Origin: Amycolatopsis albispora
GTDB taxonomy: Bacteria > Actinomycetota > Actinomycetes > Mycobacteriales > Pseudonocardiaceae
Assembly: GCF_003312875.1 (NCBI RefSeq)
Contig: NZ_CP015163.1
Span: 4,712,001-4,776,000, forward strand
DNA length: 64,000 nucleotides
Reading direction: 5' to 3'
A model generated the notes under the pieces. The model had not been told where the DNA came from and ran no database searches. It saw only the letters and a program-made list of their open reading frames with translations. Made by a program: the position numbers and the translations under genes. The first letter of the stretch is position 1; each line of letters opens with the position of its first letter. Shown piece by piece: positions 19,877 through 30,164 of the stretch.

Positions 19877-21214
19877 GTGACCGACTCCCGCGACCATGCC
19901 GAAGACGCCGCAATGCCAAGGCGAGCTGCCGCTCGCACGGCCAAGCTCGCCTCCCTGCCGCTCGGCATCGCCGGGCGCGCGGTCGGCGGCTGGGGCCGTC
20001 GGCTGACCGGCCAGAGCGCGGACGAGGTCAACGCGACGCTCTCGGCGAAGGCCGCCGAGCAGCTCTTCGAAGTGCTCGGCACGCTCAAGGGCGGCGCGAT
20101 GAAGTTCGGCCAGGCGCTGAGCGTGTTCGAGGCGGCCGTGCCCGACGAGATGGCCGCGCCGTACCGCGAGGCGCTGACCAAGCTGCAGTCGGCTGCACCC
20201 CCGATGCCGGCCCGGCAGACCCACCGGGTGCTCGCCGAACAGCTGGGGCGGTCGTGGCGCGAGCGGTTCGCCGAGTTCAGCGACGAGCCCGCCGCCTCGG
20301 CGAGCATCGGCCAGGTGCACCGCGCGGTCTGGCACGACGGCCGCGAGGTCGCCGTGAAGGTCCAGTACCCGGGCGCCGACGAGGCACTGCGCAGCGACCT
20401 GCGTCAGTTGCAGCGCCTGAGCCGGTTGTTCCAGGCGTTCGTTCCCGGCACCGACGTGAAGCCGCTGCTCGCCGAGCTGGCCGAGCGGATGGACGAGGAA
20501 CTCGACTACCGCTCCGAAGCCGAGAACCAGCGCGGCTTCGCCAAGGCCTTCGACGGCGACGACCAGGTCCTCGTGCCGAAGGTGGTGGCCAGTGCTCCCA
20601 AGGTGGTGGTCACCGAGTGGATCACCGGCACGCCGCTGTCCCGGATCATCGCCGAAGGCACCACCGAGCAGCGCAACGAAGCGGGCAGGCTGCTCGCCGA
20701 ATTCCACTACTCCTCACCGGTCCGGGCCCATCTCCTGCACTCCGATCCGCATCCGGGCAACTTCATGCTGATGGCCGACGGCAGGCTCGGCGTGATCGAC
20801 TTCGGCGCCGTCGCCCGCCTGCCGCACGGGGCGCCGCCCATGCTGGGCGTGATCATGCGCCTGGCCCTGGACGGCGAATCGGTCAAACTGCTCGAAGCCC
20901 TGCGCCAAGAGGGCTTCGTCCGAGCCGGCACCACACTGGACCCGGACGACGTGCACGCCTACCTCGCCCCGTTCGTGGCACCGCTGACCACCGAACGCTT
21001 CCACTTCACCCGGCGCTGGGCCCAGAAGCAGGCCGGCCGCCTCGGCGACACGCGCGGCCAGGACTTCCGCACCGGCCGCTCGCTGAACCTGCCGCCGAAC
21101 TGGCTGCTGATCCACCGCGTCACCGCCGGCGCCGTCGGCATCCTCTGCCAGCTGGACGCCGAAATCGCCCTCCGTTCCATCGTCGAACACTGGCAGCCCG
21201 GCTTCGCCGACTGA
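19877..21214 (+). CDS. ABC1/UbiB-family atypical kinase (Rv3197-like)
   Basis: A 445-residue protein of the ADCK/UbiB family. It contains the N-terminal KxGQ motif (K76-Q79 in GGAMKFGQALS), the alanine-rich nucleotide loop SASIGQVHRA, the lysine of VAVKVQYPG, the catalytic segment LHSDPHPGNFMLM and the DFG metal motif (VIDFGAVAR). UbiB-like proteins have ATPase or kinase activity linked to isoprenoid-lipid or quinone metabolism; the actinobacterial substrate is not established. It is downstream of the E1-like gene on the same strand. GTG 19877 lacks a clear ribosome-binding site and may be leaderless. Confidence 0.92.
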   Translation: MTDSRDHAEDAAMPRRAAARTAKLASLPLGIAGRAVGGWGRRLTGQSADEVNATLSAKAAEQLFEVLGTLKGGAMKFGQALSVFEAAVPDEMAAPYREALTKLQSAAPPMPARQTHRVLAEQLGRSWRERFAEFSDEPAASASIGQVHRAVWHDGREVAVKVQYPGADEALRSDLRQLQRLSRLFQAFVPGTDVKPLLAELAERMDEELDYRSEAENQRGFAKAFDGDDQVLVPKVVASAPKVVVTEWITGTPLSRIIAEGTTEQRNEAGRLLAEFHYSSPVRAHLLHSDPHPGNFMLMADGRLGVIDFGAVARLPHGAPPMLGVIMRLALDGESVKLLEALRQEGFVRAGTTLDPDDVHAYLAPFVAPLTTERFHFTRRWAQKQAGRLGDTRGQDFRTGRSLNLPPNWLLIHRVTAGAVGILCQLDAEIALRSIVEHWQPGFAD

Positions 21215-21700
21215 CCCCATCCCGCGTCCAGCCACAACCAGCGCCCTGCACCCCAAAGCAGGGCGGCACCCGCTCCCACAACCAACTACCGGGTCCATCC
21301 GCCGCTCATTCCGCGGCCCGGGCGCGGCCGCCCATTTCAATTGCCTGGGCCCATTCGCAACTCGGCATGGCCTCGTCCAGGTCCTTTGCGTCTGCCTGCG
21401 CTCTCACCACATCGTCTGAGTGCGTTCGCGGCCCGAGCCCGCCGCGCGCGTTCAACTCGTTCGAGGTCAGCCGCGCCCACCGGCGTCTTCCCTGCGACCG
21501 ATCATCCTCCGGCGCTCGAGCGCGCCGGCAATTCAAGGTCTACCTCACCGCGACCAACGCACGCCAGCCGTCGCCGCGGCGGCTGCTCAGTTATCCACAG
21601 TTTCCGGCCGAACTGGCAGAAGTCACCACTCGCGCGCCAAGTTGTCCACATTTCCCCGCGGCCATGGCCCCGCCCTCCACCCCGGGCCACGCTCAAAGCC
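21215..21700. promoter_or_regulatory. gene-free region with two direct DnaA-box sequences
   Basis: No supported gene is seen in 486 bp. It contains TTATCCACA (21591-21599) and TTGTCCACA (21642-21650) in the same orientation, 51 bp apart. Both match DnaA-box consensus forms exactly. Confidence 0.5.
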
Positions 21701-22648
21701 ATGACCCGCCTCAACAACCTCGCACTGGCCGAGCTCCGCACCATCGCCAGGGACAACATCCTGACCGTCGACGAGCTGCGCACGGCCGGGCTGTCGTCGT
21801 CCGCCATCAGCAATCGCTGCCGTCCCGGCGGTCCCTGGCGGCGGCTGTTCACCAGCACCGTCCTGCTCAGCAACACCGAGCCCACGCGCTCACAGCTGCT
21901 TCGCGCCGCGGTCGCGCACCTGGGTCCCGGCACGATCATCACCGGTATCGACTCGTTGAACGCACACGGCGTCGGGCTGCCACCGCCGTCGCCCATCCAC
22001 CTGCTCGTCCCCGCTCATCGAAGAGCGGTGCACGCCGGCCTGATCATCGAACGAAGCTCGAAACTGCCCGAACCGGTCTGGTTCAACGGCCTGCCCTACG
22101 CCCCGCCCGCCAGGGCGGCGGTGGACGCCGCCCGCCGCGAACCGGACGAAGACCGGCATCGCGACGTGCTGTCCAGGACCGTCTACTTCGGACTGTGCGG
22201 GCTCGACGAGCTGACCGCCGAGACGTTCAGCGGCGGCCAGCGCGGGGTGGCGGGGGTGCGCACGATGCTGCGCCACCTCAACGGCACGGCCTGCACGCAG
22301 GGCAACGGCCAGGCCAAGCTACTGCTCCGCTACGTTCCGCTGCCACCTCCGCAGTGGAACGTCACGGTCTGCGACACGGCTGGGCACGGCATCGGCCAGG
22401 TCGACGCCTGGTGGGACGACATCGCGCTGGGCTGGCAGGTGGGCGTGCCGCCGAACGAGCGCCGCGGACACCTGGGCTACCTCGCGATGACCGCCGCGGG
22501 CGTGGTGCTCGTTCGCACCGCGCACGAGAAACTGTCGGACATACCGTCGGTCGCCCGTCAGCTGGTCAGCGCGTTCGCCGCGGCGGCAGCGCGCCGACGG
22601 CCACCGGTCCGCGCGGTGACCAGGCTGCGCCCTCGGGTGGCCTCGTGA
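21701..22648 (+). CDS. hypothetical protein with AbiEi-like N-terminal domain
   Basis: A 315-residue protein. The first 60 residues (LAELRTIARDNILTVDELRTAGLSSSAISNRCRPGGPWRRLFTSTVLL) fit the winged-helix domain found in AbiEi-type antitoxins and in many solitary actinobacterial proteins. The C-terminal part (IGQVDAWWDDIALGWQVG...HLGYLAMTAAGVVLVR) looks like a decayed PD-(D/E)XK nuclease fold: the aspartate strand is present but the usual glutamate position reads Gln. No AbiEii-type nucleotidyltransferase toxin gene adjoins it, so it is not an intact type IV toxin-antitoxin pair. ATG 21701 is the best-placed start. Confidence 0.6.
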   Translation: MTRLNNLALAELRTIARDNILTVDELRTAGLSSSAISNRCRPGGPWRRLFTSTVLLSNTEPTRSQLLRAAVAHLGPGTIITGIDSLNAHGVGLPPPSPIHLLVPAHRRAVHAGLIIERSSKLPEPVWFNGLPYAPPARAAVDAARREPDEDRHRDVLSRTVYFGLCGLDELTAETFSGGQRGVAGVRTMLRHLNGTACTQGNGQAKLLLRYVPLPPPQWNVTVCDTAGHGIGQVDAWWDDIALGWQVGVPPNERRGHLGYLAMTAAGVVLVRTAHEKLSDIPSVARQLVSAFAAAAARRRPPVRAVTRLRPRVAS

Positions 22649-22828
22649 TCACCAGTACTCGTCGGGCAGCTTGCCCTCGATGTCGCGGACATGGGTCCGG
22701 GCGCACTCGGGGCACAGCCACCGCCGGACACCCCGCTCAACCTGCGTGGACCAGGTCAGCGCCTGCGCCGGGTCGTCACCCTGCCGCGTCCCGCAGCGGG
22801 AGCAGACCACCGGCTCCTCGGCACTCAT
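22649..22828 (-). CDS. small zinc-ribbon protein
   Basis: A 59-residue protein with two CxxC pairs, C9-S-R-C12 and C39-P-E-C42, spaced as in a zinc ribbon. Its ATG overlaps the stop of the preceding methyltransferase gene (ATGA at 22825-22828), so translation is likely coupled. The stop codon directly abuts that of the convergent AbiEi-like gene. Function is unknown; such ribbons bind nucleic acid or proteins. Confidence 0.75.
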   Translation of the reverse strand: MSAEEPVVCSRCGTRQGDDPAQALTWSTQVERGVRRWLCPECARTHVRDIEGKLPDEYW

Positions 22829-23727
22829 CCCGCGCGCCCGTGGTGCACGGTTCGGGTGTCGAGCACAAAGAGGTCGTCTCGCGCGCCCACGTAGTCGGGG
22901 CCGTTGAGGTCGAGCAGACGGGCGATGGCGTCCCGGTCCGACTCGTCGAGGTCGTCCCCGGCGATCTCGGCCATGAACCTGATGCGCTCGACCACATACG
23001 CGGCGACGTCGGAATTCGGGGCGACCGGCTGGTCCACCAGGTAGCTGAACCTGCCAACGTCGGTGAGCCCGGCCTTGGCCAGCGCGGTTCCCCAGCCGTA
23101 GGGCATGCGGACGACGCCGTCCATTCCGGCACGCAACGCAGCGAACCACTTGGCGCGGACGGCGTGCAGCCGATGCTCGAGCCCTGGCTCACCGACTCCC
23201 AGGTCCCACGGCAGGTTCTGCGGTTCGAGCCCGCCTTCGCTGACCGCGAGCAGCCCGCCGGGGCGGACGGCCGAAGCGATCCGCGCCAATGCTGCCTGCT
23301 GGTCCGGGAGGTGGTGCACCACGAATGAAGCCCAGACGAGATCCGCGCGGAACTCGGCGAAGTCGACCTCGGCGGCGTCACCGAGCATGGTCTGGACGGT
23401 GACGGCGTCACCACCGTGCTCCTTGGCTGCGGCTTCGGCCAAAGCCAGCAGTTCCGGGACGGCATCGACCAGCACCACGGTGCCGCCACCGCGGGAACGC
23501 AGCTCGGCGGCGAAGGCCGCGCTCATGCCACCGGCGCCGGGACCGATGTCGATCACGGTCGGCTCGGCGGGCAGGTTCGCGGTGAGCCGCTTCGCGACCT
23601 CGGCATAGGCCTCGGCGGCGAGGTGGTCGGCCACCTTCAGCCGATCGGCCCGCGCCGCCCAGTCCATCTCGTCGTGCGTGTGGCCGTGCCCGTGGCCGTG
23701 CTGGTGTCCGGAAGCCATGTTCCTCAT
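22825..23727 (-). CDS. class I SAM-dependent methyltransferase with His-rich N-terminus
   Basis: A 300-residue methyltransferase. Motif I is VIDIGPGAGGMSAAF (about 58-72), followed by VVLVDAVPELL (acidic residue binding the ribose), LGDAAEVDF and VVHHLPDQQAAL as post-motif helices. The N-terminus carries GHQHGHGHGHTHDE, a histidine cluster likely to bind metal such as nickel, zinc or copper. The start is ATG 23727 or ATG 23718. It is coupled to the downstream zinc-ribbon gene. A role in metal handling or methylation of a small molecule is possible; the substrate is not predictable. Confidence 0.85.
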   Translation of the reverse strand: MRNMASGHQHGHGHGHTHDEMDWAARADRLKVADHLAAEAYAEVAKRLTANLPAEPTVIDIGPGAGGMSAAFAAELRSRGGGTVVLVDAVPELLALAEAAAKEHGGDAVTVQTMLGDAAEVDFAEFRADLVWASFVVHHLPDQQAALARIASAVRPGGLLAVSEGGLEPQNLPWDLGVGEPGLEHRLHAVRAKWFAALRAGMDGVVRMPYGWGTALAKAGLTDVGRFSYLVDQPVAPNSDVAAYVVERIRFMAEIAGDDLDESDRDAIARLLDLNGPDYVGARDDLFVLDTRTVHHGRAG

Positions 23728-23807
23728 CTAACACGCAAAGGCGGGTGGGGAAACGGCCCCCGAGCCGCTTCCCCACCCACCGGTGGTCACGCGTTACACC
23801 CGCCGGG

Positions 23808-24074
23808 TCACCGGGTGGACCGGCGTGCCTGCTTGGCCGCCCAGCGGCCGATGCGCCCGTTCCGGCGCGATGGACGGGCGTGGCGCCACGTCCGGTCACC
23901 GCGAGCGGTGACGTGCAGGTCCCGTATTCGGGCTCTGGCCAGCTCTTCGTAAAGCAACATTTCAGTGATCTCCTTGATCATGGTCGGCGCGGGGTTCGGT
24001 CGGCCGAACTCCGTGTCGTTGTGGTTGTGGTCGTGCCGACCGGTGTGGTCGGTCAGCGGGCCGGTGTCGGTCAT
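23808..24074 (-). CDS. small basic protein translationally coupled to whiB7
   Basis: An 88-residue protein that I do not recognise. The first half is polar and His/Asn rich (GRHDHNHNDTEF). The second half is a basic, Arg-rich helix (TEMLLYEELARARIRDLHVTARGDRTWRHARPSRRNGRIGRWAAKQARR). Its ATG overlaps the whiB7 stop (ATGA at 24071-24074), so the two are probably expressed from the same attenuated transcript and this protein may be part of the resistance response. The basic helix could bind RNA or the ribosome; that is only inference. Confidence 0.6.
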   Translation of the reverse strand: MTDTGPLTDHTGRHDHNHNDTEFGRPNPAPTMIKEITEMLLYEELARARIRDLHVTARGDRTWRHARPSRRNGRIGRWAAKQARRSTR

Positions 24075-24445
24075 GCCGCCTCGATCCCCTGGCGCAGCGG
24101 CTTCTTGGCAGCCGGGGCCGGAGCCTCGACGGGGTTCTTCCGCGGGCGGCCACGGGGCCGCTTGCGCGCGACGACGGCGCCGCGCTCGAAGATTTCGCCA
24201 CCCCAGACGCCCCACGGCTCCCGCCGGGCCAGCGCACCGGCCAGGCAGGCCGCGCGGACCGGGCAGTCCACGCAGAGCACCTTGGCGCGCTCGAGCTCGG
24301 CCGGGGCCTCCGCGAACCAGAGGTCCGCGTCGCCGGAGCGGCATGGCAGGTCCCGCTCGGGCGAGGCAACGGCATCCAGCAGGTCACCGACTCCGTACTC
24401 GTCGGTCAGCGCCTCCTCAGGCCGGAAGGCGATCGCCGAAGACAT
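24071..24445 (-). CDS. whiB7: WhiB7/WblC transcriptional regulator
   Basis: A 124-residue iron-sulfur WhiB protein. Four cluster-ligand cysteines are C35, C58, C61 and C67; the WhiB turn GVWGG is at 79-83; and the AT-hook RPRGRPRK (96-103) is specific to WhiB7. WhiB7 binds the housekeeping sigma factor and an AT-rich element next to the -35 box, turning on intrinsic resistance to ribosome-targeting antibiotics. ATG 24445 has AGGAGAA upstream. A long leader with an upstream ORF and intrinsic terminator precedes it. It lies downstream of uvrD2, as in mycobacteria. Confidence 0.95.
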   Translation of the reverse strand: MSSAIAFRPEEALTDEYGVGDLLDAVASPERDLPCRSGDADLWFAEAPAELERAKVLCVDCPVRAACLAGALARREPWGVWGGEIFERGAVVARKRPRGRPRKNPVEAPAPAAKKPLRQGIEAA

Positions 24446-24490
24446 TCCCGTTCTCCTTGTGTAGTAAGGGTTTCTTGTTGTTTTTGACGT

Positions 24491-24539
24491 AAAAAACACG
24501 AAGGCCGCGGATCCGATGTACGGTTCCGCGGCCTTCGTG
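24491..24539 (-). terminator. intrinsic attenuator terminator in the whiB7 leader
   Basis: A perfect 15-bp stem (24497-24511 with 24525-24539) with a 13-base loop is followed on the minus strand by six U (A-run 24491-24496). It stands 21 bases after the stop of the upstream ORF and 45 bases before whiB7, so it must be bypassed for whiB7 to be transcribed. Confidence 0.92.
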
Positions 24540-24560
24540 AGCCTGCTCCTGACGGGACTG

Positions 24561-24863
24561 TCAGGGACCTCGCTCTATGAGGGGAGGCGGAACGTGCAGC
24601 TGGATCGGCTTGGCAACCTGGGCATCAACGGCCGGCCGGACATAGGTCGGCAGCAGCATCGGGAGAACGTTCCCGACACCGGTCTCAGCGGTGGTGAACT
24701 CGGCGCTGCGGCGCCCACGGAAAACGCGTTCCGTGGTGGCGGCGATCGAGCGGTGCTGAGCGACCAAGGACACACCGGTGCCCCGGCGCGCACGCGCATC
24801 CCGGCCGGCGGCGGCGCAGGACACAGTGGTGCCCGGGTTACCGTTCAGAAAGAAAATCTTCAC
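24561..24863 (-). CDS. upstream ORF in whiB7 leader (100 aa)
   Basis: GTG 24863 is preceded by GGAGG (24872-24876) with 8-base spacing, a near-ideal start. The 100-residue peptide begins VKIFFLNGNPGTTVSCAAAG, is basic in the middle, and ends LHVPPPLIERGP, with a PPP run at residues 92-94 close to the stop at 24561. A small CCTGAC/GTCAGG hairpin overlaps the stop, and the terminator follows after about 21 bases. Leaders of whiB7 homologs are known to use an upstream ORF whose slow translation prevents termination. The size and PPP run here are what the sequence shows; their role is inferred. Confidence 0.75.
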   Translation of the reverse strand: MKIFFLNGNPGTTVSCAAAGRDARARRGTGVSLVAQHRSIAATTERVFRGRRSAEFTTAETGVGNVLPMLLPTYVRPAVDAQVAKPIQLHVPPPLIERGP

Positions 24864-24947
24864 GCCAGACACCTCCCATCCCCATCGCGGCGCTCGAGCC
24901 GAGCTCGGCAAGCCGGTTTCTTCCGGGCGCTTCACCCGGGTACTTGC

Positions 24948-24995
24948 AGGTTATGGGCCACGGGGTGGCCGGGGCAACTTATTTTCCGGAAATTT
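24948..24995 (-). promoter_or_regulatory. WhiB7-type promoter with AT-rich upstream element
   Basis: On the minus strand -35 TTGCCC (24972-24977) and -10 TAACCT (24948-24953) are 18 bases apart. An AT-rich tract (24978-24995, AAATTTCCGGAAAATAAG) touches the -35 box, as in promoters that WhiB7 activates through its AT-hook. This predicts autoregulation and a leader of about 500 nt. Confidence 0.75.
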
Positions 24996-25071
24996 CCCCG
25001 AACCAGCGAAAAAGGCCGCTGAACAGGGCATATGTCCGGAAAGTCAGGGGTGACCGAGCGCGCCGGTGCGG

Positions 25072-27165
25072 CTACGAGCCGACAGCCTCGCGCACCACCG
25101 CGAGAATCTCCGCGCCGAACCGTTCGAGCTTGGTCTGGCCGATGCCGGAGATCGACACGAGCGAACTCTCGTCGACCGGGCACTGCTCGGCGATCGCGAT
25201 CAGCGTGGCATCGGTGAACACCACAAAAGCAGGAACCTTCAGTTCGCGCGACCGATTTCCGCGCCAGTACTTCAGCCGCTCCAGCACCTGTTCGTCCACC
25301 GTGGACGGACAGCGGTCGCATCGGCCCAGCTTGATCGCCATGGTGCCGGTCAGCGGGCCCTCGCAAACCCGGCAGGCCTGCCGCTGGCCGTTCGAGCGGA
25401 CCTGCGCGCCGCGCGCAACGCGGGCGGCCGGGTGGTTCTCGGGCAGCAGGCCGTAGAGAAAGCGGCTGCGGCGCCGGGTCCGCCTGCCACCTCCGCTGCG
25501 GTACAGCGACCAGGTCAGCGAGAGGTGCTCACGCGCGCGGGTGACCCCGACGTAGAAGAGGCGGCGTTCTTCCTCGATCGCGTTCTCGTCACCGTCGGCG
25601 TGCTGGATCGGCAGCGTGCCCTCGGCGAGGCCGACCAGGAACACCGCGTCCCATTCGAGGCCCTTCGCCGCGTGCAGTGACGCCAGGGTGACGCCTTCGA
25701 CGGTCGGCGGGTGCTGGGCAGCCGCGCGCTGCTCCAACTCCGCGACAAACCGGGCGAGGTCGGCGTCCTCCACCGTCGCCGCCAGTTCCTCGGCCAGCTC
25801 GACCAGGGCGAGCAGCGCGTCCCAGCGTTCCTTGGCGGCGCCACCACCCGCGGGCGGCTGTTCGGTCAGGCCGATCGGGGCCAGCACCGCGCGCACCGCG
25901 TCGACGAACTCGCCGCGCTGCCCGGCCGCGGCCGCGCTCCGCAGCGCGATCACCGCCTGGCGGATCTCCTGACGCTGGAAGAACCGTTCACCACCGCGGA
26001 CCAGGTACGGGATGTCCAGCTCGGACAACGCCTGCTCGTAGGCCTCCGACTGGGCGTTCACCCGGTAGAGGATGGCAATCTCGCTGGCGGGCACGCCGAG
26101 TTCGAGCAGGTCGTGGATGCGGGCGGCAACGGAGGCAGCCTCGGTTGTCTCGTCCTCGTACTCGGCGAACCGCGGCTCGGGCCCGTCCGGCCGCTGGCCG
26201 ATCAGGCGCAGCCGCGAGCCGGCCGGTCGGTTGCGGGCGGCACCGATCACCTTGTTCGCCAGCGCCACCACCTGCGGGGTGGACCGGTAGTCGCGTTCGA
26301 GCCGCACCACGGTGGCGTCCGGGAAGCGCCGGGTGAACTCCAGCAGCGGCCGCGGGGACGCGCCGCCGAAGGAGTAGATGGTCTGGTTCGCGTCACCGAC
26401 GACCGTCAGATCGTCACGACCGCCGAGCCAGGCGTCGAGCAGGCGCTGCTGCAACGGCGTCACGTCCTGGTACTCGTCGACCACGAAGCAGCGGTAGCGG
26501 TCGCGGAACTCCTCCGACACCGCACTGTGCTCTTCGAGCGCGGCGACGGTGTGCAGCAGCAGGTCGTCGAAGTCGAGCAGGCGCGCGTTGTTCTTGAGCT
26601 CCTCGTAACCGCGGTAGACCTGCGCGATCCGCTCGGCGGGCTCGGGCGTGTCGCGGCGCAGGCGGGCGACCACGGCCGGGTAGTCGTCGGCGATCACGAG
26701 CGAGGCCTTCGCCCACTCGATCTCGCTGGCCAGGTCACGCAGCACCTCGACCTCGGTGCCCAATCCCGCCCGGTTGGCGGCCTGGCCGATCAGCCGGAGC
26801 TTGTTGTTCTCGATCAGATCCCACTGCGGCCCGCCGACCACCCTCGGCCAGAAGTACCGGAGCTGACGCAGCGCGGCGGCGTGGAAGGTGCGGGCCTGCG
26901 CGCCCTCGACCCCGAGCCCGCGAAGCCGCGCCCGCAGCTCACCGGCGGCGCGGTTGGTGAAGGTGACAGCGAGTACCTGCCCGGCCGCTACGTGACCGGA
27001 TCGCACCAGGTGAGCGATACGGTGCGTGATCGTGCGGGTCTTGCCCGTACCGGCACCCGCGAGCACGCAAACGGGGCCGCGTGGGGCTCCGGCGGCGGCA
27101 CGCTGTTCGGGGTCGAGCCCGTCGAGCAGGCCGGGCTTTGCTTCGGAGACGGATGCGCTACCCAC
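25072..27165 (-). CDS. uvrD2: ATP-dependent DNA helicase UvrD2
   Basis: A 697-residue SF1A helicase. Motif I is LAGAGTGKT (about 35-43); [34 protein letters not shown] and VTRAREHL supply motifs II, III, IV and VI. After the helicase domains there is a Cys cluster ([22 protein letters not shown], seen here as two CxxC pairs) and a C-terminal HRDC domain, the layout of actinobacterial UvrD2. GTG 27165 is chosen: GAGG lies 8 bases upstream, and the longer open frame is non-coding. It acts in DNA repair or replication and is located directly upstream of the whiB7 leader. Confidence 0.95.
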
Positions 27166-27216
27166 TCCCGCATCCTCGCAGACGCTCCCCGACGGCCCGC
27201 CCGTATCCTGGTGGTT

Positions 27217-27945
27217 ATGGCCGGAAAGCTGGACAAGGAAGCCGCCAAGCAGGCGAAGAAGGAAAAGCGCGCGGCGAGCAAGGCTCGGCGCGGGCAGATC
27301 TTCGAGGCGTTCAAGATGCAGCGCCGCGAGGACAAGGCGCTCATCCCGTGGATGGTCGGCGCGATCCTGGTCGTCACCGGCGTGGTCTTCGGCATCGGCT
27401 TCCTGCTCGACCTGCAGTGGGTCCTGCTGCCCATCGGCATCATGCTGGGCGTGCTCGCCGCGGTCATCATCTTCGGCAGGCGCGTGCAGAAGACCGTCTA
27501 CTCGAAGGCCGACGGCCAGCCGGGTGCGGCCGCCTGGGCGCTGGACAACCTCCGCGGCCGGTGGCGGGTCACCCAGACGGTGGCCGCGACCACCCAGCTC
27601 GACGCCGTGCACCGGGTGCTCGGCGGCCCCGGCGTGGTGCTCGTCGCCGAAGGTGCGCCGCACCGGGTGAAGGGCCTGCTCGCCCAGGAGAAGAAGCGCA
27701 TCTCGCGGCTGGTCGGCGAGACGCCGATCTACGACATCACCATTGGCCACGAAGAGAACCAGATCCCGCTGCGCAAGCTGCAGAACTACCTGATGAAGCT
27801 GCCGCGGAACCTCAAGCCCGCCCAGGTCGACGCGCTCGAGGCCAAGCTGGCCGCGCTCGGCAACCGCGGTGCCGCCCTGCCCAAGGGCCCGATGCCGCAG
27901 GGCGCCAAGATGCGCAACGTCCAGCGCACCATCCGGCGGCGCTGA
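27217..27945 (+). CDS. DUF4191 membrane protein (Rv2219-like)
   Basis: A 242-residue protein. A lysine-rich N-terminus ([19 protein letters not shown]) precedes two transmembrane helices (about 45-90) and a cytosolic domain ([52 protein letters not shown]) characteristic of DUF4191. ATG 27217 sits 7 bases after TATCCT, so the mRNA is likely leaderless. It is divergent from uvrD2 and followed by RDD and glnA genes, matching the mycobacterial order. The function is not known. Confidence 0.88.
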
Positions 27946-27962
27946 CCCCGGCCTTCACGCAG

Positions 27963-28001
27963 GCAAAAGGGGAGCCTCCACGGCGGGGGCTCCCCTTTTG
28001 C
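27963..28001. terminator. bidirectional terminator between DUF4191 and RDD genes
   Basis: GCAAAAGGGGAGCC (27963-27976) pairs perfectly with GGCTCCCCTTTTGC (27988-28001), an 11-base loop between. Stem ends carry A4/T4 so it can act in both directions for the two convergent genes. Confidence 0.88.
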
Positions 28002-28013
28002 GTGCGGAAGACT

Positions 28014-28496
28014 TCAGCGGAGGCGGAGCACCGCGGTGCCGGTCGCGCGGTCCAGCAGGCTGCGGCCGTCCACGTTGCGCACCGCGGCGGGCACGATGAC
28101 GAAGGTCAGCGCCCCGCGGACCACCGCGCGCCACAGCCCGACCATCGGCGCGCCGTCCAGCCGCGCCACCCGGATCCCGACCACGCCCATGCCCGGGGTG
28201 AACCCGAAGAACGAGACCGGGACCATGGTGATCACCGCCCAGACCACCACGCTCCACAGGTTGTACGACTCCATCACGTCGGGCTGGTCGAACCGCGGCT
28301 GGATGAACAACGAGGTGAGCAGCGACGCGAGCGCGAGATCGATCAGCAGGCCGAGCAGGCGGCGGCCGCCGGCCGCGATCGAACCGGGGCCGCTCTCCGG
28401 CAGGCCCAGCCGTTCACCGCGCCACCGCTGGTCGTGCCCGTCCCCGCCGCTCGCTTCGCGGGCCCCGGGCAGCCACTCTCCGGTCCATCTCGCCAC
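28014..28496 (-). CDS. RDD-family membrane protein
   Basis: A 160-residue protein with RRLLGLLIDLALASLL (the RDD start), two to three hydrophobic helices, and a C-terminal domain (FFGFTPGMGVVGIRVARLDG...RNVDGRSLLDRATGTAVLRLR) containing the conserved DR near the end. GTG 28496 follows TACCCT by 6 bases, a leaderless layout. It converges on DUF4191 and is divergent from glnA1, the same arrangement as Rv2219A in M. tuberculosis. RDD proteins may transport small solutes; no substrate is known here. Confidence 0.85.
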   Translation of the reverse strand: MARWTGEWLPGAREASGGDGHDQRWRGERLGLPESGPGSIAAGGRRLLGLLIDLALASLLTSLFIQPRFDQPDVMESYNLWSVVVWAVITMVPVSFFGFTPGMGVVGIRVARLDGAPMVGLWRAVVRGALTFVIVPAAVRNVDGRSLLDRATGTAVLRLR

Positions 28497-28563
28497 CCGT
28501 CCAGGGTATGCGGGTGGCGCGCACCACGTCCGCCCTGGTCGACTATCCGATATCGCCCCACCC

Positions 28564-28580
28564 GTTAACACCGGCGAAAC
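28564..28580 (+). promoter_or_regulatory. GlnR-like box upstream of glnA1
   Basis: GTTAAC-ACCGGC-GAAAC (28564-28580) fits the GlnR operator pattern of a TnAC half, six bases, then GAAAC. It is 160 bases before the glnA1 start. A weaker partial copy may lie near 28631 (GTAACG). GlnR control of glnA is established in actinomycetes; here it is inferred from the site. Confidence 0.55.
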
Positions 28581-28739
28581 ATACGGGTGACGGTCGGGCA
28601 ACACCGCGCTTTTAGCGTGAACCGAAGAGAGTAACGCGCGGCAAGCACGGGTGCTCGCGCAATCACGCTCTGAACGCGATGCGGCGACAAAGCGACAAGC
28701 ACGGCCGCCGGCAACGAGAACATGAAGGAGTTACCGAGG

Positions 28740-30164
<1,425 letters not shown>

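Follow-up and report, generated by a model that had tools for sequence, protein, structure and literature searches.

How a leader reading frame of 100 codons might control whiB7, and what three consecutive proline codons near its end contribute, are the questions raised by the whiB7 locus of Amycolatopsis albispora, which lies on the minus strand of the DNA analysed here (64,000 nt, the window). In many actinobacteria, whiB7 is a main switch to tolerance of ribosome-targeting drugs (excerpts of PMC11550727 and PMC10727445). Attenuation of whiB7/wblC by an upstream open reading frame (uORF), a terminator and an antiterminator is established, going by excerpts of PMC10727445, PMC11550727 and PMC9618640; these, with an excerpt of PMC13393426, describe a scheme in which a translated uORF leads to the terminator and a blocked uORF to the antiterminator, and the scheme is credited in such passages to Lee, Lee and Roe (2022, Mol Microbiol 117:179). 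An earlier note on this DNA had described a promoter, a uORF, a hairpin over its stop codon, a 15-bp terminator with U6 and whiB7, all of which were found at the same coordinates here. We assign the leader, with a probability of roughly 0.8, to the ribosome-controlled transcription attenuators of the known whiB7/wblC type.

The leader lies between whiB7 (24445-24071, 124 aa; ribosome-binding site AAGGAG at 24458-24453) and a gene encoding a UvrD-like helicase with an HRDC domain (Pfam; scanned over 27024-25072, ending at 25072), both on the minus strand, as are all coordinates below. Its promoter combines a −35 element (TTGCCC, 24977-24972), an 18-nt spacer and a −10 element (TAACCT, 24953-24948), and the leader would be about 496 nt long if transcription begins 6-7 nt past the −10 element. 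GAAAAT (24986-24981), which fits the WblC/WhiB7 site GAAAWY, stands 3 nt (AAG) upstream of the −35 element, so the albispora leader has the GAAAWY placement of the attenuator class and follows the rule of GAAAWY 3 nt before the −35 (excerpt of PMC7157823). The string GAAAWY-N3-TTG recurs in 99 of 253 leaders against 0.15 expected, and a promoter of the AT-rich/TTG/TANNNT form in 251 of the 253 against 2.4 expected from base shuffles. The whiB7 product matches the Pfam family WhiB (PF02467, E 9.1e-15), and its residues 95-106 match the AT-hook at 16.6 bits, slightly below the Pfam cut-off of 17.4; the gene downstream of the leader thus has the WhiB domain and C-terminal AT-hook that go with the class, while an NCBIfam search of WhiB7 returned no family at E <= 0.001. 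Among the matches listed, identity of the protein reached 96% with one same-genus genome and 84% with named Amycolatopsis. Downstream of whiB7, a SAM-dependent methyltransferase is encoded on the same strand (22825-23727; Pfam Methyltransf_11 and relatives).

Relatives of this leader were collected from 80 loci of named genomes (the best 80 of at least 518 confirmed relatives), from 30 added same-genus loci (58 of 60 same-genus relatives had a WhiB7 match at E 1e-15), and from 20, 60, 40 and 60 stretches of order and class genomes, hand-chosen from match lists. Of the 148 class genomes, 129 had a WhiB7 match, as did 289 of the 298 from the order. uORFs were called by a strong Shine-Dalgarno sequence, 15-150 codons and a stop near the terminator core, so that the length limits are built into the rule and the starts are predicted. 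This gave a uORF in 173 of 190 loci (106 in L001-L110, 67 in L111-L190; terminator core in 177 of the 190) and in 32 of 40 and 48 of 59 further loci, a total of 253 of 289 with duplicates across locus sets included; at the other 36 no terminator core or no uORF was recognised by the rules used. Dereplication at 50% peptide identity left 121 leaders, L001-L110 having been cut beforehand to 17 hand-picked ones. In one order-level family, f8 (L124, L133, L136, L149, L195, L278, L279, L281-L286 and L288), a count by eye gave 14 loci of 22 with a called uORF, of 42-86 codons, and eight at which no terminator core was recognised. Four genomes of a single genus in that family (G367, G395, G415 and G419; 2.3-2.9 Mb) gave no WhiB7 match at E 1e-20.

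The albispora uORF runs from GTG 24863 to TGA 24563-24561, and its start region and frame are the same in relatives; a Shine-Dalgarno sequence (GGGAGG, 24877-24872) precedes the GTG by 8 nt. As in the class, it carries a ribosome-binding site and ends just before an intrinsic terminator, the distance from stop codon to terminator core being 15-41 nt (median 24) over the dereplicated leaders. Its length of 100 codons had been thought unusual, which the comparison contradicts: uORFs range from 23 to 147 codons with quartiles of 66, 83 (the median) and 95, and 26 of the 121 have at least 100 codons. The peptide, which ends VPPPLIERGP, is under weak constraint, and conservation of it, which the earlier note had proposed to check, was not found: over 78 same-family uORF pairs, dN/dS was 0.89 in the first 20 codons, 0.64 in the middle and 0.80 in the last 20. 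In those last 20 codons synonymous and nonsynonymous changes alike are rare (pS 0.047, pN 0.038, against pS 0.183, pN 0.123 in the middle); together with the ratios of 0.64-0.89, this indicates conservation of the reading frame, hardly any of the peptide, and, at the 3′ end, conservation as RNA. A functional small protein as the product of the uORF is accordingly very improbable, even though an ORF of similar length class is kept at the same place across the class, since those ratios, the absence of any NCBIfam or Pfam match to the peptide and the spread of lengths from 23 to 147 codons all argue against it.

Within the uORF, the in-frame motif GGN-ACC-NNT-NTG-YCC occurs twice, at codons 11-15 (24833-24819) and 28-32 (24782-24768), and would be read as Gly-Thr-x-Val/Leu/Met-Ser/Pro. 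The pattern GG.A[CT]C..T.TG[CT]CC has 26 copies in 24 of the 121 dereplicated uORFs, all in frame 0, where codon shuffles predict 0.03, and most occurrences of a looser peptide form are 31-93 codons ahead of the stop. The frequent T at third codon positions, odd in such GC-rich DNA, suggests a role for the motif as RNA.

Downstream of the reading frame, the terminator spans 24539-24491 and consists of a 5′ arm, T5 (24539-24521), a loop (24520-24516), a 3′ arm, T3 (24515-24497), and the U6 tract (24496-24491). Its stem has 15 bp (24539-24525 with 24511-24497), followed by an A.A mismatch (24524/24512) and three more base pairs; the terminator of L085, from the same genus, is without the mismatch. 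Around the stop codon, CCUGAC (24565-24560) pairs with GUCAGG (24553-24548) to enclose the UGA, with a variant pairing in one of the folds, and folding places a further helix, GAGC (24575-24572) with GCUC (24542-24539), around this stop hairpin. For the 181 nt of 24620-24440 the folding energy is −70.8 kcal/mol (z −5.45), a stability that none of 200 shuffles reached. A fold enclosing the stop codon was found in all 121 dereplicated leaders (a raw count), and a strand-swap test of the stop-hairpin strands gave z −15.7 over the same 121. When 39 chosen leaders were aligned (of the 40 picked, one had no called uORF), all 14 invariant columns fall in the terminator hairpin, which is therefore conserved as sequence, beyond the mere presence of a stem.

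An Rfam search of 20000-30000 returned no match to the leader at E <= 1 and two weak matches elsewhere in that interval. A covariance model of the 3′ leader, built from the 39 leaders, recovered the whiB7 leader in the albispora genome at E 5e-10, the opposite strand of it weakly at E 0.005, and a single further site, also weak, at E 0.38, a result that speaks to specificity only, because the albispora leader was in the building set. In genome G077, whose whiB7 lies on contig C128, the attenuator model had a second full-length match on another contig (C44:12630-12747, E 4e-6).

The earlier note had named no antiterminator. In the minimum-energy fold of the leader lacking T3, GUUCCGC (24593-24587), hereafter arm A, pairs with GCGGAAC (24529-24523) in T5 around the stop-codon domain; A lies under codons 91-93 (Val91-Pro92-Pro93). 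A24524, which faces A24512 in the terminator, faces U24592 in the antiterminator, and among the dereplicated leaders the upper terminator arm has a mismatch or bulge in 96 of 121, the affected 5′-arm base pairing with A in 67 of those 96. When complementarity to T5 was scanned by position in 83 leaders (13 hand-picked from the same family and 70 others), it was strongest at position −38 relative to the terminator core, immediately ahead of the stop hairpin (mean z −1.40), and the model does not account for a further, weak signal around −165 (mean z about −0.37). In the 121 leaders, cognate A:T5 pairs averaged −19.81 kcal/mol against −16.49 for swapped pairs (z −15.2), a difference that none of 3000 permutations matched. 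Taken alone, the 45 leaders that come from loci after L190 gave z −9.7 (0 of 3000), a test of 82 leaders gave z −11.4 (0 of 5000), and control regions gave z +1.4 and +0.3 (82 leaders) and +1.2 (121 leaders). These permutations keep the kinship between leaders, the effect of which dereplication lessens. Comparing single leaders with base shuffles was dropped as uninformative in GC-rich DNA, and the position scan and strand swaps were used instead: p was at or below 0.05 in just 7 of 106 leaders, and for the albispora leader it was 0.535, with the best T5 partner at another site.

Folds and cognate-pairing tests thus predict an antiterminator that shares sequence with both uORF and terminator, as in the class. 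With the terminator itself, the A:T5 pairing and the cognate pairing across the class, the proposal that uORF attenuation controls whiB7 in this species is supported. A terminator that works constitutively, beside a uORF without a role in control, would agree with the full-length leader at equilibrium, which always favours the terminator; this is scarcely credible, however, given that the covarying A:T5 pairing overlaps the last uORF codons and that attenuation is established in relatives.

The calculated switch point depends on where the RNA ends and on what the ribosome covers. In the free leader, the probability of A:T5 is 0.73 with the 3′ end at 24523, 0.68-0.93 for ends at 24520-24505, and 0.01 at 24503. 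Covering 24605-24570, the generic footprint of a ribosome on the three prolines, reduces A:T5 to 0 throughout, and the terminator begins to form once the 3′ end is at 24509. If instead a ribosome stands at the stop codon and covers 24581-24550, the model still gives A:T5 a probability of 0.16-0.92 over 3′ ends 24523-24505, so an OFF state at the stop codon would need steric separation of A and T5, since the thermodynamics still allow the pairing there. Arithmetic from generic footprints puts the boundary at about codon 85: a ribosome stalled no later than that would leave A free, and one stalled beyond it would cover A. The calculation fits the published scheme, in which a translated uORF gives the terminator and a blocked one the antiterminator.

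In the mechanism that we infer, RNA polymerase would start near 24941 and transcribe the uORF, followed by a ribosome. If translation kept pace, the ribosome would be on the last ~15 codons or at the stop as T5 emerged, and would either cover A or melt the stop hairpin that brings A near T5; T5 would then pair with T3 and transcription would end at U6. A drug or an amino-acid shortage that stalled the ribosome before about codon 85 would instead leave A free, the stop hairpin would fold, A would pair with T5, and the polymerase would enter whiB7, whose product would raise the activity of its own promoter. The earlier note's suggestion that slow translation of the last codons decides the folding of the terminator is supported as to place, the 3′ end of the uORF being the probable decision site, and is given a sign here: slow last codons should mean OFF, and stalls before about codon 85 ON.

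As far as the whiB7/wblC attenuator is known here through citing passages, the albispora leader shares its autoregulated promoter, uORF, intrinsic terminator, antiterminator formed from uORF and terminator, and whiB7 downstream; nothing essential differs, and the albispora leader adds three prolines on and just after A. It is an ordinary member of the described class, and the size of its uORF is normal. The comparison also yields an anatomy of arm A, stop hairpin and terminator core for the class as a whole. In attenuators of the trp/his type, the position of the ribosome at the end of the leader ORF chooses between terminator and antiterminator. That choice is shared here, but the albispora uORF is long and has no stretch in which a single regulatory codon is repeated, and its stop codon lies inside a hairpin. 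The ilvB1 leader of M. tuberculosis is an amino-acid attenuator of the trp/his type (excerpt of PMC13236596).

This leaves the three prolines, codons 92-94 (CCG CCT CCC, 24590-24582), which overlap A and extend just 3′ of it. They could be a sensing site at which a stall, caused by a drug or by weak EF-P activity, turns whiB7 on. Elsewhere, leaders with polyproline can act as sensors of EF-P activity, as in the case of mgtC; in the Salmonella mgtCBR leader, pausing on proline codons, linked to EF-P, turns the operon on. The albispora leader has in common with it proline codons placed in a leader ORF so as to affect attenuation, and the triplet is really present, as the earlier note had described; a sensing role is nevertheless improbable. 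Only 3 of 253 uORFs have the triplet, those of the albispora leader (L081), its closest relative (L082) and Amycolatopsis bartoniae (L032), so it is not characteristic and was rejected as a conserved sensor; nor was a conserved Pro-Pro found at the sensing position, as a polyproline/EF-P leader would have, 61 of 121 uORFs having a proline pair somewhere among their last 12 codons. Moreover, whereas pausing in mgtCBR means ON, the consecutive prolines here lie on the antiterminator arm, and a ribosome slowed on them, hiding A, would favour the terminator and probably keep the gene off.

What recurs across the class is a broader pattern of proline pairs, rare inside the uORF and gathered at its end, which is the new observation of this analysis; we found no mention of it in the literature looked at, in which coverage of subscription papers was limited, and do not claim its absence from print. 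For dipeptides, the interior was counted from the second residue to 14 before the end, and for the share of residue triplets with proline from past the fifth residue to 12 before the end, both bounds having been set after a first look at the data. Pro-Pro occurred twice in 79 uORF interiors against 18.4 expected, the lowest z of all dipeptides with at least 8 expected (0 of 2000 shuffles). Next by z came two dipeptides without proline that were nearly as depleted, Arg-Ala (36 against 64.6) and Ala-Thr (58 against 88.8); Gly-Pro (12 against 30.6) and Asp-Pro (1 against 10.8) were also scarce, while Arg-Pro, Leu-Pro and Pro-Ala were enriched. The discovery set of 75 dereplicated uORFs gave 2 Pro-Pro against 17.2, 12 Gly-Pro against 28.9 and 1 Asp-Pro against 10.2. 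A first hold-out of 11 dereplicated uORFs had no Pro-Pro depletion (2 against 1.6), with Gly-Pro 0 against 4.2 and Asp-Pro 1 against 1.4, and a second, of 31 uORFs, had 3 Pro-Pro against 10.7 (7 of 2000 shuffles as low), 6 Gly-Pro against 14.9 (10 of 2000) and 2 Asp-Pro against 5.5 (156 of 2000). Control counts in 32 long ORFs of the window, cut into 183 pieces, were 60 against 48.7 for Pro-Pro, 57 against 64.7 for Gly-Pro and 57 against 41.6 for Asp-Pro.

Reading frame matters for part of this pattern. In 120 interiors (uORFs longer than 30 codons), Pro-Pro was depleted in frame 0 (7 against 30.1), and the same string was as expected in frame 1 (249 against 250.5) and less frequent in frame 2 (59 against 81.2), which weakens avoidance of CCNCC in the RNA as the cause, frame 2 being partly depleted. 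Asp-Pro was depleted in frame 0 (4 against 17.6) and as expected in the others. For Gly-Pro (18 against 48.5 in frame 0), a cause in RNA or DNA is possible, because GGNCC is also depleted in frame 2 (61 against 127.9).

At the other end of the peptide, the 121 uORFs have 73 Pro-Pro pairs in all, of which 66 fall within the final 12 codons, 24 occupying the third- and second-last positions, and proline is among the last three residues in 85 of 121 uORFs, compared with 20% of interior triplets (80-leader set). In family f8, Pro-Pro is absent from the last 12 codons of 13 of 14 uORFs (L133 being the exception), unlike in many other families.

Pro-Pro, Gly-Pro and Asp-Pro are slow peptide bonds. 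For consecutive prolines, such slowness agrees with excerpts of PMC5021804 and PMC8129111. The counts suggest that slow proline steps have been cleared from most of the peptide and collected at its end, and indirectly that proline-rich ends matter. A possible reason is that pauses before A would cause needless ON decisions and be selected against, while pauses on or after A would give OFF and be tolerated or favoured. We tentatively propose, as a possibility rather on the unlikely side, that the uORF is a speed-calibrated runway from which slow bonds have been removed over 50-100 codons, where hesitation would free A and falsely switch whiB7 on, and that proline pauses on the last ~10 codons form an EF-P-dependent OFF latch, widespread in actinobacteria, in which a slow ribosome on A keeps the gene off until the polymerase has passed the terminator. 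If true, a long leader ORF could detect nearly every kind of blocked translation and still avoid false alarms, its runway being free of slow bonds and its pauses placed where the gene stays off.

The OFF latch is a hypothesis, and RNA pairing can also account for the tail: pairing of A with a G-rich T5, and the stop hairpin, would make CCN codons pile up, so that the proline-rich end would be a by-product to which pausing is irrelevant. We give this a little under even odds. The three prolines do lie on and beside A, and over the last 20 codons synonymous sites, too, are under constraint. Where tryptophan stands at −5 (19 dereplicated leaders), codon −3 is CCA in 11, CCG in three, CCC in two and not proline in three, and this prevalence of CCA, more uniform than free coding needs, points to constraint on the RNA. 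Against a mere by-product, RNA pairing leaves the in-frame depletion of Pro-Pro and Asp-Pro inside the uORF unexplained, and proline codons ending in A or T make up 103 of 290 in the tail but 49 of 519 in the interior, an excess greater than that of other codons (380 of 1162 in the tail, 1414 of 7575 in the interior).
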